DNA from: Rhodospirillales bacterium
GTDB taxonomy: Bacteria; Pseudomonadota; Alphaproteobacteria; Rhodospirillales; Magnetospirillaceae
Assembly: GCA_014380005.1 (NCBI GenBank)
Contig: JACMKT010000087.1
Coordinates: 1-32,725 of the forward strand
Length of the DNA: 32,725 nt
Reading direction: 5' to 3'
Positions 8,527 to 13,090 of the stretch are shown in pieces. The notes beneath the pieces were generated by a model that ran no database searches, was not told the origin of the DNA, and saw nothing but the letters and a program-made list of their open reading frames with translations. Made by a program: the position numbers and the translations under genes. The number at the start of each line of letters is the position of its first letter. Position 1 is the stretch's first letter.

Positions 8527-8888
8527 TGCGCCGCCTGATCCTGCTGGCCCTGCTCGCCACCCCCGCCCAGGCCCAAATCGATTATTTGGCACCGTGGTCG
8601 GCTTACGTGGGCGGTGCCGCCGTGGCTGCCCGTTGCGGAATCGTGCTGGGCGGTCCCGAGGCCGCGCAATGGCTGGAAAATATCGGCCTGCTGGCCAACC
8701 ATGCCCGCAAGAAGATGACGGATTCAGGCATGACCGAGGCGGAAATCAACACCGCCATGGACCAACGCCGCGCCGCAATCACCGCCCGCGCCCATGAGAT
8801 GACCGGCCAAGGCTGCGACACTCTGATTGTAACCGAGCAAATCCGCCTGCATCAGACGCGCGGACGCGGCGGGCTATCGGCCCATTAG
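8523..8888 (+). CDS. Small secreted protein of unknown function
   Basis: A 121-residue protein not recognised as a family member. It begins MMRRLILLALLATPAQA, a clear Sec signal peptide probably cut after AQA, leaving a mature periplasmic protein of about 104 residues. There are two cysteines (ARCGIV and GQGCDTL), which could form a disulfide in the periplasm. The ATG at 8523 overlaps the DUF455 stop (ATGATG), so it is probably translationally coupled as third gene of the operon; ATG 8526 is an equally possible start. Its stop codon TAG (8886-8888) overlaps the stop of the convergent SocA-like gene. Confidence 0.75.
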   Translation: MMRRLILLALLATPAQAQIDYLAPWSAYVGGAAVAARCGIVLGGPEAAQWLENIGLLANHARKKMTDSGMTEAEINTAMDQRRAAITARAHEMTGQGCDTLIVTEQIRLHQTRGRGGLSAH

Positions 8889-9433
8889 GTCTTGAGCGCC
8901 TTGGGCGTCCACGACTTCACCGCCACCGCCTTGCCGTCCTGGGACCGCATCAGGCGCGGGCGCACCATCTCGGTCGGCGCAGGCACGCCGGCTTTTTTGG
9001 CGGCAGCGTCCACGCCGTAATATTTCACCATGGCAGCCAGAGTGATTTCCTCGCCCAGGCCTTTCGCCATGGCGTCGGCCACCGGAGGATGGGCCGCCAC
9101 CTTCTTGTTCAGTTGCTCGGCGCTGTACTGGCCGAAGCGGCGCCAGATGGTGTCAAGGAACTGGGTCACGCTGGCCGTGACGGGATTGCCTTCCACCATA
9201 TGCGGGCGGCCATAGGCGAAGGTGTGGAACACGGTGGGTTCCACCGGGCCAAGGCTGTCGGTAATGAAGGTGGCGGGCATCAGCTTGCGCCCCGGAAAGG
9301 CCACCGAGAAATAGGCTTGGGCCAGGAACATCAGCCGGTGCAGTTTCTGCGGCTGAATGTATTCCCGGTCGTTCAAAGCCCGATCGGTAAACCAGAACAC
9401 CACGTCCAGAGTGGATTTCACCGCGAACGGCAT
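8885..9433 (-). CDS. SocA/Panacea (DUF4065)-like domain protein
   Basis: A 182-residue protein resembling the SocA/Panacea fold. Support comes from VVFWFTDRALNDREYIQPQKLHRLMFLAQAYF (residues 11-42, quoted here only as landmarks QPQKLHRLMFLAQ) and the later SLGPVEPTVFHTFAYG. These match the family pattern of a Lys-Leu-Gln-Lys-Leu helix and a GPV-p-vy segment. Family members are antitoxins, sometimes proteolytic adaptors such as Caulobacter SocA, and are also found in phages. The start ATG 9433 has AGGAGG at 9439-9444. No partner toxin is encoded beside it on the same strand: it stands alone, tail to tail with the small secreted-protein gene and overlapping it by 4 bases. The C-terminal third (after about residue 110) is not recognised. 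Function is inference. Confidence 0.65.
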   Translation of the reverse strand: MPFAVKSTLDVVFWFTDRALNDREYIQPQKLHRLMFLAQAYFSVAFPGRKLMPATFITDSLGPVEPTVFHTFAYGRPHMVEGNPVTASVTQFLDTIWRRFGQYSAEQLNKKVAAHPPVADAMAKGLGEEITLAAMVKYYGVDAAAKKAGVPAPTEMVRPRLMRSQDGKAVAVKSWTPKALKT

Positions 9434-9624: not shown

Positions 9625-11085
9625 ATGATTTTCGGCGAGGAGCGCGTAGACGAAGCCCAGGGCCTGATCCTGGCCCATTCGTTGCGCCTGCCCCACTCCA
9701 TGCTGAAGAAGGGCCGGGTGCTGAATGCGGACGACGTGGCCGCGCTGAAGGCCGCCAACATCAACTTCATCACCGGCGCCCGCCTGGAGGCCGACGATGT
9801 GGGCGAGGACGAGGCCGCCGGCATGATCGCCCGTGCCCTGACCGGCCCCGGCATCAGCTTCAACACGCCGTTCACCGGGCGCTGCAATCTGTTCGCCGCC
9901 GAACGCGGCTTGCTGGTCTATGACCGCGACCGGCTGGACCGCCTGAATTTGGTGGATGAGGCCGTCACCGTCGCCACCGCCCCCGCCTTCGAACAGGTCG
10001 GGCCGCGCCAGATGGTCGCCACCATCAAGATCATCCCCTTCGGCGTGAACCGCCGCGTGCTGGACGCCTGCGCCGCCTATGCCTCCACCGGCGGACCGCT
10101 GGTATCGGTACGCCCGTTCCGCCGCCGCCGCGCGGTGCTGATTTCCACCACCCTGCCCGGCCTCAAGGAATCCGTGCTGGCCCGCAGCACCGAAATCACC
10201 CGCACCCGAATTGAGGCACTGGACGGCGAATTGCTGGGCGAGTTGCGCTGCCCCCACGAAATCGGCCCCATCGAGCGCGCCCTGTCCAAAGCCCTGGGCA
10301 TGGGCGCCGATCTGGTGCTGATCGCCGGGGCCTCGGCCACCGTGGACCGCCACGACGTGGTGCCCAGCGCCATCCTGCGCGCCGGTGGGCAATTGGACCA
10401 TTTCGGCATGCCGGTGGACCCCGGAAATCTGCTGCTGCTGGCCCGGCTGAACGACGTGCCCGTGGTCAATCTGCCCGGCTGCGCGCGGTCGGCCAAGCCC
10501 AACGGCCTGGATTGGGTGCTGCGCCGCATGGCCGCCGGCATGACCATTAAACCCGCCGAGATGATGCGCATGGGCGCCGGTGGCCTGCTGAAGGAACTGG
10601 GCACCCGCCCGCGCGATTTGGGCTGGGCCGTACCGCCCCCCGCCGCCCGCGAAGCCCGCATCGCCGCCCTGATCCTGGCCGCAAGCGGCATCCCCCCGCT
10701 GCCCCAGGTGGAGGCCGCCCTTGCCGCCGGGCTGGAACCGGTAGTAGTGCTGACCGGCCCCGACGGCGAGTCCATGGAAGAAACCCTGCCCGTCTGCGAA
10801 GTGCTCACAATCCGCGAAGCCGACCTCGCCGCCGGCCTTGCCCTGCTGCCCGCCGAAGTGGACGCCGCCCTGATCATCCCCGCCGGCACCGAGACCAGCC
10901 CCGAAGCCCTGGCCGATCTGGTCAAAGCCTTCGACCCCGACGAAGGCCGCGCCATCGTCCTGCCCGGTGGACGGGACCATTGGGGCATCGTCGGACGGGA
11001 TTTGTTCGACCCGCTGGCGGAACTGGGGCTGGCCGCTTTGGCGGCGGAGCATGGGGAAATGGTGTTCCAGGTGGTGCTGTCTTAA
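9625..11085 (+). CDS. Molybdopterin-binding protein fused to a degenerate MobA/MocA-like nucleotidyltransferase domain
   Basis: A 486-residue protein. Residues 1 to about 330 form a MoeA/MogA-type molybdopterin-binding module (GADLVLIAGASATVDRHDVVPSAI, GMPVDPGNLLLLA, VVNLPGCARS). Related fusions carry a molybdenum cofactor nucleotidyltransferase domain at the C-terminus. Here that domain starts AALILAASG and continues VVVLTGPDG and AALIIPAG. The signature loop expected after LAAG (G-R-S-x-R-M-G) and the usual metal-binding DQP/DMP motif are absent. The C-terminal part therefore probably does not transfer nucleotides, although the fold seems preserved. The start ATG 9625 has AAGGAG at 9611-9616. 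Likely role: handling or regulating molybdenum cofactor in the cytoplasm; no molybdoenzyme gene is nearby. Confidence 0.75.
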   Translation: MIFGEERVDEAQGLILAHSLRLPHSMLKKGRVLNADDVAALKAANINFITGARLEADDVGEDEAAGMIARALTGPGISFNTPFTGRCNLFAAERGLLVYDRDRLDRLNLVDEAVTVATAPAFEQVGPRQMVATIKIIPFGVNRRVLDACAAYASTGGPLVSVRPFRRRRAVLISTTLPGLKESVLARSTEITRTRIEALDGELLGELRCPHEIGPIERALSKALGMGADLVLIAGASATVDRHDVVPSAILRAGGQLDHFGMPVDPGNLLLLARLNDVPVVNLPGCARSAKPNGLDWVLRRMAAGMTIKPAEMMRMGAGGLLKELGTRPRDLGWAVPPPAAREARIAALILAASGIPPLPQVEAALAAGLEPVVVLTGPDGESMEETLPVCEVLTIREADLAAGLALLPAEVDAALIIPAGTETSPEALADLVKAFDPDEGRAIVLPGGRDHWGIVGRDLFDPLAELGLAALAAEHGEMVFQVVLS

Positions 11086-11162
11086 AAGTTGAAGACGTCG
11101 CGGTTCGTCTGATACAACCGCTAAACGACTGCGTTATGGATACTCGCGCTTAGGGGGCTGCC

Positions 11163-12929
11163 GTGTTCGAGAAGATCAAAGAGGAAATCGCAAGCGCTTA
11201 TTTCCAGCAAAATTTCCCGAACGATGGGCAGCGCTTTGTAGCATGGTACCTGCGGAATGTTTTGCTTCGCGACATGAACGAGGCCAAGGCAGATATTACC
11301 GATGGGCCGGATGACAAGCAGATTGATGCAATTGTCGTCGATGACGACAAGTCAATAGTGCGAATAATCCAAGGAAAATTCATTGGCAGCGGCACTGTTG
11401 ACGGAGAACCATTGCGCGAAGTTCTGTCGTCATGGATTCAAGTTAAGGATCTGTCGCGACTGCAAAACGTGGCAAACAGCAAGCTGAGGGCAAAATTATC
11501 TGAGTTAGCAACCGCTCTTGAAGATGATTACGAAATTTCCTTTGAACTTGTAACGACTGGAACGCTCACGACTGCGGCGCAAGCCGATTTTGCGACATTC
11601 CAGGAAGAATTGGCCAAACTCAGCGAGAACGAATCTTTCGACGCCACCATCCATGTAGTTGACGCGAATGAGCTGAAGCGCCGTTATGAATATGCCATCG
11701 AAGCCGACAATCCGAGCCTCAACTACACGCTCGATCTTTCGCGCGCAAAGCATATGTATCATGAGATTGCGGGGACGCCAGTTGTGGTCGCAGCCTTGCC
11801 ATTAAAGGAGTGCATCAAGCTCCCCGGCATTAAAGATGGAACGCTATTTCAGAAAAATGTAAGGCAGAGCCTTGGGGCTAGCAACGCCGTAAACAAGGGA
11901 ATTCGCAGTTCGATTCTGGGCGATAAGCGTAGCGATTTTTTCTTTTTTCACAATGGCGTCACAGCGCTTTGCAACAAAATGAAATTGGACACCGTGACGC
12001 AGTCACTTTCACTACATGGCTTAAGCGTTGTCAATGGATGTCAATCTCTAAATACCATCCTATCATGCTCTGAGACTGTAAAAAAAGCGGATGACGCCTT
12101 CATCCTATTTCGGTTCTATGAAATTCCGCAACGTGATCGCGCAGACAAGATTTCAATCAATACAAACTCCCAAAGCGCCGTCAAAGCGCGTGATCTGCGC
12201 AGTAATGACAAGCGGGTGCTGGCACTGAAAAAAACTTTCGAACTGAAATACCCTAATGGTTACTTCATAACAAAACGAGGCGAAGTTGCCCCCGCCGATC
12301 GAAACAAGAATGAGGTCGTGGATCTTTCCGAATATGCAAAGACGTTGATTGCGTGGCAGACTCTTAGGCCGAACCTGTCCTATGGTGAAACGAAGATTTT
12401 CGACAAACACTTTGAAACTTTGTTTAAGAACAAAGACTATCCGGTCGAGAACGTTATGGCCCTGAATAAGTGGATGAAGGCCATTCGGCGTGTATGGGCT
12501 GCCGAAAACCCCCTCAGCTTGAACGAGACGTTGCTGGCGATGAAGGCCTATGCGCCATATCATCACCTTTATGCTGTTGCTATGTGTTTTTCGATTTCCA
12601 GCAATCAACCAGATCGAGTTCCAAGCCCCGCTCGGGCATGGATGGCTGCGGAAGCCGTTGGCATGGTTGATGAAATTGTCCGGCTTGGCGGGACCAGCTT
12701 AAATATGGCTCTTGAAGCGGCTGCGAATGAACCGCAGCCGTCCAACCGCGTGTTCAGCCCCCAGAACTGGGTCAAGACCAAGGGCTGCTTATCAAACATA
12801 AACATGGCCATCCGAAACTACTTCAATATGCTGAATGTCATGCCTGGTGGAGCAGACATGAAGAAGAAGCTGAATGCCGCTGCCATGCTGCCACAGGATG
12901 CATTTGAATACCGTTGGTCAGCGGACTAA
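11163..12929 (+). CDS. AIPR family protein (abortive infection / phage resistance)
   Basis: A 588-residue protein of the AIPR family. The core is clear: FQKNVRQSLG (229-238), AVNKGIRSSI, FFFHNGVTALC (260-270), NGCQSLNT (291-298) and INTNSQSAVKARDLRSND (331-349). The N-terminus shows DKQIDAIVVDDDK, then IIQGKF, which reads as a PD-(D/E)XK-like nuclease core with Asp55 and Gln70-x-Lys72. Family members occur in defence islands and restriction clusters; an anti-phage role is inference. The start is GTG 11163 behind AGGGGG. Base composition is visibly lower in GC than all neighbours, with many AAA, AAT and TTT codons, suggesting recent transfer. It stands alone: no methylase, other restriction gene or integrase is adjacent. 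A terminator overlaps its last codons. Confidence 0.85.
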   Translation: MFEKIKEEIASAYFQQNFPNDGQRFVAWYLRNVLLRDMNEAKADITDGPDDKQIDAIVVDDDKSIVRIIQGKFIGSGTVDGEPLREVLSSWIQVKDLSRLQNVANSKLRAKLSELATALEDDYEISFELVTTGTLTTAAQADFATFQEELAKLSENESFDATIHVVDANELKRRYEYAIEADNPSLNYTLDLSRAKHMYHEIAGTPVVVAALPLKECIKLPGIKDGTLFQKNVRQSLGASNAVNKGIRSSILGDKRSDFFFFHNGVTALCNKMKLDTVTQSLSLHGLSVVNGCQSLNTILSCSETVKKADDAFILFRFYEIPQRDRADKISINTNSQSAVKARDLRSNDKRVLALKKTFELKYPNGYFITKRGEVAPADRNKNEVVDLSEYAKTLIAWQTLRPNLSYGETKIFDKHFETLFKNKDYPVENVMALNKWMKAIRRVWAAENPLSLNETLLAMKAYAPYHHLYAVAMCFSISSNQPDRVPSPARAWMAAEAVGMVDEIVRLGGTSLNMALEAAANEPQPSNRVFSPQNWVKTKGCLSNINMAIRNYFNMLNVMPGGADMKKKLNAAAMLPQDAFEYRWSAD

Positions 12930-12951
12930 CTCCAACTCTCCGCTGACTTTT
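12917..12951 (+). terminator. Intrinsic terminator overlapping the AIPR stop codon
   Basis: GTCAGCGGA (12917-12925) pairs perfectly with TCCGCTGAC (12939-12947), followed by TTTT. The TAA stop (12927-12929) lies in the loop, so the terminator is built into the end of the gene. Confidence 0.85.
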
Positions 12952-12967
12952 CCGCCGCACTAAGAAA

Positions 12968-13048
12968 ACACGAATGAAAACGAATAAGAACGAATTCTAG
13001 GCGCACCACCGGTGTCGCCTGCTCTGTTCCATTCGTTTTCATTCGTGT
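12968..13048. repeat. 18-bp perfect inverted repeat with helically phased CGAAT boxes
   Basis: The left arm ACACGAATGAAAACGAAT (12968-12985) is the exact reverse complement of 13031-13048, across a 45-base spacer. CGAAT recurs at 12971, 12981 and 12991, exactly 10 bases apart, so the boxes fall on one face of the helix. It lies between the AIPR terminator and the efflux operon. It may be a multi-site operator or a mobile intergenic repeat. Confidence 0.8.
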
Positions 13049-13090
13049 CCCAAAATCCACAGCCCCGCCCGGCGCATACGCTCACCACCC

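Follow-up and report, generated by a model that had tools for sequence, protein, structure and literature searches.

We identify in the window, the whole stretch of 32,725 nucleotides from a Rhodospirillales bacterium that was analysed here, a single-gene member of the AIPR family, whose product we read, with a probability of roughly 0.6, as a one-gene antiphage effector that would join a nuclease to a nucleoside triphosphate (NTP) switch in the service of defence. The family assignment, the conserved nuclease residues, the probable nuclease fold and the movement of the gene as a single open reading frame (ORF) were computed directly, and we infer in addition nuclease activity, NTP binding, gating of the nuclease and the defensive role.

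The gene, its boundaries and its host genome

The features that the analysis deals with are the following (coordinates in the window, with the supporting evidence in parentheses):

11083..11152, no strand: left junction zone; similarity to the sister genome G002 stops at 11082
11153..11162, plus strand: ribosome-binding region and left limit of DNA similarity with the nearest homologues (blastn)
11163..12929, plus strand: AIPR-family gene, 588 aa, GTG start (ORF list, profiles, start alignment)
11163..11714, plus strand: PD-(D/E)XK nuclease-like domain, residues 1-184 (VIA-align Z-scores, Mrr_cat touches in the family)
11325..11327, plus strand: Asp55, predicted metal ligand (69 of 69 sequences; distant relatives)
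11370..11378, plus strand: Gln70-Gly71-Lys72, predicted QxK half of the active site (69 of 69 sequences; distant relatives)
11760..12182, plus strand: ParB/Srx-like fold, possible NTP-binding switch, residues 200-340 (VIA-align, Z up to 6.2)
11847..12596, plus strand: Pfam AIPR core, residues 229-478 (PF10592 and invariant residues)
12273..12926, plus strand: mostly helical C-terminal part, residues 371-588 (DSSP of the models)
12917..12951, plus strand: terminator-like hairpin over the stop codon, then TTTT (fold and arm search)
12930..13089, no strand: right junction zone; similarity to G002 restarts at 13090
12968..13048, no strand: dispersed palindromic repeat 3' of the AIPR gene (18-bp perfect arms; not common to homologues)

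The Pfam AIPR profile (PF10592) matches the 588-aa product with 116.9 bits against a cut-off of 25 (E = 1.9e-33), which bears out the family membership claimed in a preliminary description of this DNA, and it is matched by all 69 aligned family sequences at E<=1. Related profiles recovered were PADLOC AbiU (residues 105-477; E = 1.4e-34) and phrog_1841, labelled 'Abi alpha-like abortive infection mechanism' (residues 26-548; E = 1.3e-58). Judged from its sequence, the ORF is a further example of a known family. In the Pfam profile scan the AIPR_N domain (PF22879) was absent among the matches of the window protein at E<=1 and was found in two of the eight proteins scanned (L001 and L002); a sequence search of the PDB with the window protein gave a best E-value of 0.45. 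A start codon aligns exactly with residue 1 of the window protein in 44 of 77 close homologues, and within 1-5 codons of it in most of the others.

As noted in the preliminary description, the gene is poorer in GC than its neighbours (48.5% versus 64.4% in the rest of the window; GC3 54.7% versus 70-88% in the six other genes measured). Comparison of gene and surroundings at the 70 loci flanked by 4 kb or more revealed that the AIPR gene is the AT-richer of the two in 62, and that its GC tracks that of the host (r = 0.86), suggesting that part of the low GC is intrinsic to the family.

The flanking genes are ordinary, coding for a 531-aa protein whose molybdopterin-binding match falls below threshold and for an HlyD/AcrB efflux pair. 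The assembly is listed at 6.25% contamination; nevertheless, the contig looks native, since the flanks share 89-90% DNA identity with G002, a genome of the same genus. Between the same flanks G002 carries a gene for a 575-aa TPR protein and no AIPR gene; this TPR gene was not found in the window's own genome (G000), and in G010 it lies on a different contig from both flanking genes. Thus, the site between the flanks has held different cargo. A comparison with related strains, suggested earlier as a way to find a clean junction, revealed the TPR gene in G002 rather than a clean empty site, and with that gene present in the sister genome, gain and replacement at the site are indistinguishable. 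Elsewhere in the window a minus-strand gene (8885-9433) shows a SocA/Panacea antitoxin-like match near threshold (24.0 bits versus a cut-off of 25.7); as G002, G010 and G007 show similarity over this region too, the gene is not part of what moves together with the AIPR gene.

The same genome codes for a second PF10592 protein (G000:C136, locus L140, 2021-3160, minus strand; E = 1.8e-22), which is nuclease-less, its core beginning near its start. The gene adjoins two nitrogenase component 1 family genes, one on each side, which by our reading of their sequences would be nifK and nifE. Among 119 relatives searched, three match this protein: one is the genome that carries it, and the other two matches are weak and partial.

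At its 3' end, the gene had previously been drawn to 12951; it stops at 12929, and the longer extent takes in a hairpin and T-run that had been described as the gene's own terminator overlapping the stop. The hairpin is real: perfect 9-nt arms starting at 12917 enclose a 13-nt loop with the stop codon inside and are followed by TTTT, with a fold of -15.8 kcal/mol (z = -4.2). It is not listed by a simple terminator scan of the window, because the scan requires a shorter loop and a longer T-run; further hairpins that satisfy the rule used here turn up at several positions of the window, whereas 20 base shuffles produced none. We regard it as a modest terminator candidate. Further downstream, we weighed the palindromic repeat (fold -42.7 kcal/mol; z = -10.8) as a possible end of a cassette and discarded the idea, because the element is a dispersed repeat: with up to two mismatches it has 137 hits in the genome versus one for a reversed control. 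Exact matches of its arm pattern number 71 in the window's genome, against 8 in G002 and 7 in G004, and the remaining 10 members of the genus have none, suggesting that the repeat is lineage-specific.

Distribution, mobility and gene-neighborhoods

A PF10592 match is present in 8 of 61 related genomes and, within the genus (13 genomes), in the window's genome and G001 only; the AIPR protein of the latter is distant (23.6% identity over residues 21-374). The window's gene itself occurs in just one of these 13, its own, rather than in all relatives, and likewise its product is matched at E<=1e-60 in one of 385 genomes of the class, again its own. Scanning 84,980 species genomes with six short peptides recovered 78 loci, a lower bound in view of the few short peptides used, with best-segment identities of 51-89%; they are spread over many phyla and include two archaeal records (L083 and L094). 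The alignment of 69 sequences used throughout comprises the window protein and 68 of these loci; the ten left out (L073, L078, L105, L112, L119, L125, L127, L128, L134 and L135) were partial or had no usable start or ORF.

DNA similarity to the three nearest homologues (L058, which is from Sphingomonas echinoides, L059 and L060) stands at about 77%, starting at window position 11153 for L058 and L060 and at 11162 for L059, and ending at 12927-12929; the one match beyond the ORF and the 10 bases or fewer preceding it is a stray one of 32 bases in L058. This limitation of the similarity to the stretch from ribosome-binding site to stop suggests that the moving unit is the ORF alone. In a quick tree of the 69 members, many of them metagenome bins, the 12 phylum labels need 21 changes, with 11 the least possible and a shuffled mean of 32.6. 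Rows of different phyla are interleaved, yet the labels cluster more than shuffled ones, suggesting that descent within phyla plays a part too. The best reading of these sequence relationships is that the gene has been horizontally moved. The preliminary description had spoken of a recently acquired cassette: transfer is favored by the presence of the gene in its own genome alone among the 13 of the genus, whereas low GC by itself is a weak sign of recent arrival.

A plasmid collection yielded no record at E<=1e-30, while the record of locus L068 is titled plasmid, and five viral contigs carry relatives with 49-78% identity. In the viral contigs L212 and L213 the AIPR gene lies directly 3' of a pair of ORFs, one of about 700 and the other of 960-980 aa, whose sizes suggest type III mod and res.

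To survey the gene-neighborhoods we clustered the neighboring products of 76 loci, as delimited by a crude ORF caller, and found no cluster in more than eight loci; the commonest, named by our reading of their sequences, were HsdM-like proteins (8 loci), masked sequence (6) and integrase-like proteins (6). Adjacent genes shorter than 90 aa, longer than 1500 aa or with masked residues were removed, and 114 of the remaining 115 were scanned, one near-duplicate being left out. Among the 25 of 130 Pfam families shown, the counts were ResIII 7, DEAD 6, Methylase_S 5, and 3 each for N6_Mtase, Phage_integrase, HsdM_N, Helicase_C and Eco57I; PADLOC assigned type IIG to 7 and type I specificity to 5. 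The restriction-modification (RM) families shown are a minority of the 114 genes, and some close members of the family adjoin type I or type III restriction genes. The earlier view of a self-contained one-gene unit is upheld by these data, in that DNA similarity is confined to the ORF and no neighbor recurs in more than 8 of 76 loci. Its solitary state, however, is not new, as single AIPR genes are already on record in Felsduovirus phages.

Domain architecture of the protein

Modeling with AlphaFold on the 69-sequence alignment (mean pLDDT 84; full-length pTM 0.49) gave an alpha/beta N-terminus with strands at residues 56-60, 65-72, 124-131 and 161-166. VIA-align comparisons of residues 1-183 recovered FokI (Z = 10.1; 141 residues, rmsd 3.1), followed by AF1548 (Z = 9.2), MspJI (9.1) and AspBHI (8.0), with EndoMS, HamA of Hachiman and Card1 further down the list. 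The RNA polymerase subunit RPB5, which is not a nuclease, is also among these matches (Z = 4.7-5.8), so the fold alone does not show cutting. Foldseek searches of the PDB with both models (that with the N-terminus and that of residues 186-588) returned nothing at E<=0.001. At E<=1, Mrr_cat is touched by 28 of the 69 family members (best E = 8.3e-5) in a scan that also brought up unrelated families, with as many as 15 members touching them, and NERD is touched by one; the window protein itself touches neither at this threshold.

Asp55, Gln70 and Lys72 lie where the preliminary description had put them, in the setting of model strands 56-60 and 65-72, and are invariant in all 69 sequences. Given that close homologues alone constitute weak proof, we aligned 59 distant AIPR relatives with 15-24% identity. 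These rows are non-independent (e.g. the motif stretches of L206 and L261 are almost identical), and the profiles that recovered them include one that takes in the N-terminus. An intact D-[QE]xK is present in 31, whereas 15 are degenerate (including L001 and L002, the AIPR_N matches), 6 keep the aspartate and one of the other two residues, 6 have no residues there, and one is without the aspartate through its start call. Thus, not every AIPR protein depends on cleavage. Ranked by conservation in these relatives among residues 1-184, Asp55 is second, Gln70 third and Lys72 seventh, with Phe25, Gly48, Gly133 and Asp51 also among the most conserved. A listing of 64 places supplied 54 loci, with 8 left out and 2 belonging to the window's own genome. 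The family HMM picked up 60 of 63 loci, and L262, a close family member whose contig is as long as that of L071, was dropped from these to give the 59 rows; the three missed (L216, L223 and L233) are probably of the degenerate kind, being strong PF10592 matches that the family HMM nonetheless failed to recover. Taken together, the models and the conserved triad indicate that the N-terminus probably has the restriction-endonuclease-like core of the PD-(D/E)XK superfamily, in agreement with the resemblance pointed out in the preliminary description, and in the window protein this domain may well be an active DNA-cutting nuclease.

C-terminal to this lies the AIPR core, in which N232, R234, N264, G265, N291, G292, Q294, N335 and Q337 are invariant in 59 of 59 distant relatives, a pattern that is partly selected for because the rows were found by profile. 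All nine are found in the window protein, so the core motifs are intact, as had been stated. In VIA-align comparisons the model of residues 186-588 (pLDDT 87) matched ParB-CDP (Z = 6.2), Caulobacter ParB (6.1), PadC (6.1), pNOB8 ParB (5.7 and 5.5) and KorB (4.9), so that the first six rows are all of the ParB fold, all with values below the caution mark of Z = 8. Lower rows include SspE (Z = 4.3), Noc (4.0) and BrxU (3.3), the fits to SspE and BrxU having an rmsd >10 (7drr 4.2). The same comparison gave no convincing fold match for the helical C-terminal part. Profile comparison of the middle domain with ParB, DndB and GmrS (usable loci: ParB 30 of 30, DndB 8 of 8, GmrSD 13 of 17) was non-significant, but has little power since the control pair DndB-ParB failed too; GmrS-DndB reached a probability of 50.

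Foldseek searches against viral models recovered three matches at E<=0.001, one to a protein named AIPR and two to uncharacterised proteins, along with weaker ones to sulfur-modification-associated, GmrSD N-terminal and restriction-endonuclease proteins. A podovirus is represented among these models by two distinct proteins, an AIPR protein of 371 aa and another of 223 aa (BFVD A0A8S5R496 and A0A8S5R4D7), each matching part of our model, as if nuclease and core were two genes there or one gene had been broken.

The coherence of the ParB-fold list (Z up to 6.2) is suggestive of a ParB/Srx-like middle domain. It agrees with the available text of earlier studies, which places the N-terminus of DndB in the AbiU1/AIPR family (PMC3506569), describes DndB as a ParB-like, ATP- and GTP-binding, ATP-dependent repressor (PMC12704722), and assigns GmrS a ParB/Srx fold with a DGQQR motif (PMC4619093). 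NTP binding by the AIPR core is on these models a lead.

Proposed mechanism and relation to known systems

Under the reading that we favor, the N-terminal PD-(D/E)XK domain would cut DNA by means of Asp55, Gln70 and Lys72, while the central ParB/Srx-like core probably binds a nucleoside triphosphate via its N-x-R, N-G, NGxQ and NxQ motifs and would gate the nuclease; the helical C-terminus may bind a second subunit, the DNA or the trigger. Since the gene moves with neither a methyltransferase nor an antitoxin, gating must be what spares host DNA. Cutting might be confined to the period after infection, i.e. act abortively, or to modified or otherwise unusual DNA in a type IV-like manner, which is the way of GmrSD, SspE and BrxU. 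We give slightly less than even odds to a broader proposal, namely that the AIPR superfamily consists of single-chain NTP-switched nucleases, a PD-(D/E)XK cutter with a ParB-fold switch as the HNH-free counterpart of GmrSD and SspE, of which a large branch typified by AIPR_N would have lost the active site and act by another route, with the window gene in an active branch that has no partner genes and extends over many bacterial phyla and two archaeal records. If the N-terminus is PD-(D/E)XK and the core a ParB-like NTP switch, the AIPR family would gain a testable mechanism, with the branches bearing intact and degenerate nucleases as natural built-in controls, and one has to ask how a nuclease moving on its own would spare the host.

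Other functions can be set against this one-gene effector. The likeness to DndB, and the location of the second, nuclease-less AIPR gene of this genome, which has a nitrogenase component 1 family gene on either side, would suit a nuclease-bearing regulator or repair factor, working as a DndB-like, ParB-like NTP-binding repressor rather than in defence; we consider this unlikely, as the patchy presence across phyla, the lack of conserved partner genes and the relatives in phages fit defence or conflict better, and the nuclease motif persists in very distant members. Similarly improbable is an accessory toxin of RM systems, separated in this case from its partner and dependent for its action on an RM enzyme encoded at another place in the genome. 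AIPR genes beside RM genes are reported in the available text of PMC3506569, PMC2292703 and PMC5379612, and the HsdM-like cluster at 8 of 76 loci and the ResIII, Methylase_S, N6_Mtase and Eco57I matches point the same way, but the nearest homologues share only the ORF, and the RM families shown are in the minority among the adjacent genes.

The tight ORF limits of the unit and its many different neighborhoods would also be expected of a selfish homing nuclease with no part in defence; however, no common target gene was seen in the neighborhoods and the window gene lies between genes, not inside one, making this reading highly improbable. HEPN domains are all-helical and carry a conserved R-x4-6-H, whereas the modeled N-terminus is alpha/beta and no pair of arginine and histidine, each in at least 80% of the 69 sequences, stands 5-7 residues apart. 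On these grounds we ruled out a HEPN ribonuclease N-terminus, and with it an RNA-cleaving abortive toxin retains a very low probability, even though the available part of a 2012 study gives the AIPR N-terminus as a HEPN toxin (PMC3506569).

Going by the text available to us, the label of abortive-infection protein was attached to AIPR proteins by 2008 at the latest (PMC2292703), and a separate PD-(D/E)XK protein encoded alongside an AIPR protein has been described (PMC9523054). No PD-(D/E)XK N-terminus for AIPR itself was found in the accessible portions of the open-licence PMC literature, including PMC9122126, PMC3506569, PMC3710099, PMC2292703, PMC9523054, PMC10121019, PMC4619093, PMC5379612, PMC12839542 and PMC12704722.

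Among known systems, the AbiU/AIPR superfamily resembles the window protein in its core domain and motifs, size and phage-resistance annotation; its members L001 and L002 differ in having AIPR_N and a degenerate motif in place of the D-QxK of the window protein. MzaE of the MZA system is alike in the AIPR core (E = 3.8e-9), but the window protein scores 35.6 bits against the equivalog cut-off of 1050 (NCBIfam NF041935), and its gene has the efflux pair and the 531-aa protein as neighbors. In the Felsduovirus phages Salmonella RE2010 and Klebsiella ST437-OXA245phi4.2 a single AIPR gene lies between the dinI region and the portal gene, and one such record is annotated 'prevents superinfection'. 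The RE2010 protein keeps D-QxK like the window protein, although these phage proteins are only 22-25% identical to it and the Klebsiella copy has QCY instead of QxK. Mrr, MspJI and AspBHI share the nuclease fold, along with the weak Mrr profile match in part of the family; in contrast to them, no modified-DNA recognition domain was identified in the window protein. GmrSD and SspE are alike in pairing an NTP-binding-fold domain with a nuclease, which in SspE is of the HNH type. The GmrSD nuclease is also HNH according to the available text of PMC4619093 and PMC12839542, whereas that of the window protein is PD-(D/E)XK-like and N-terminal.
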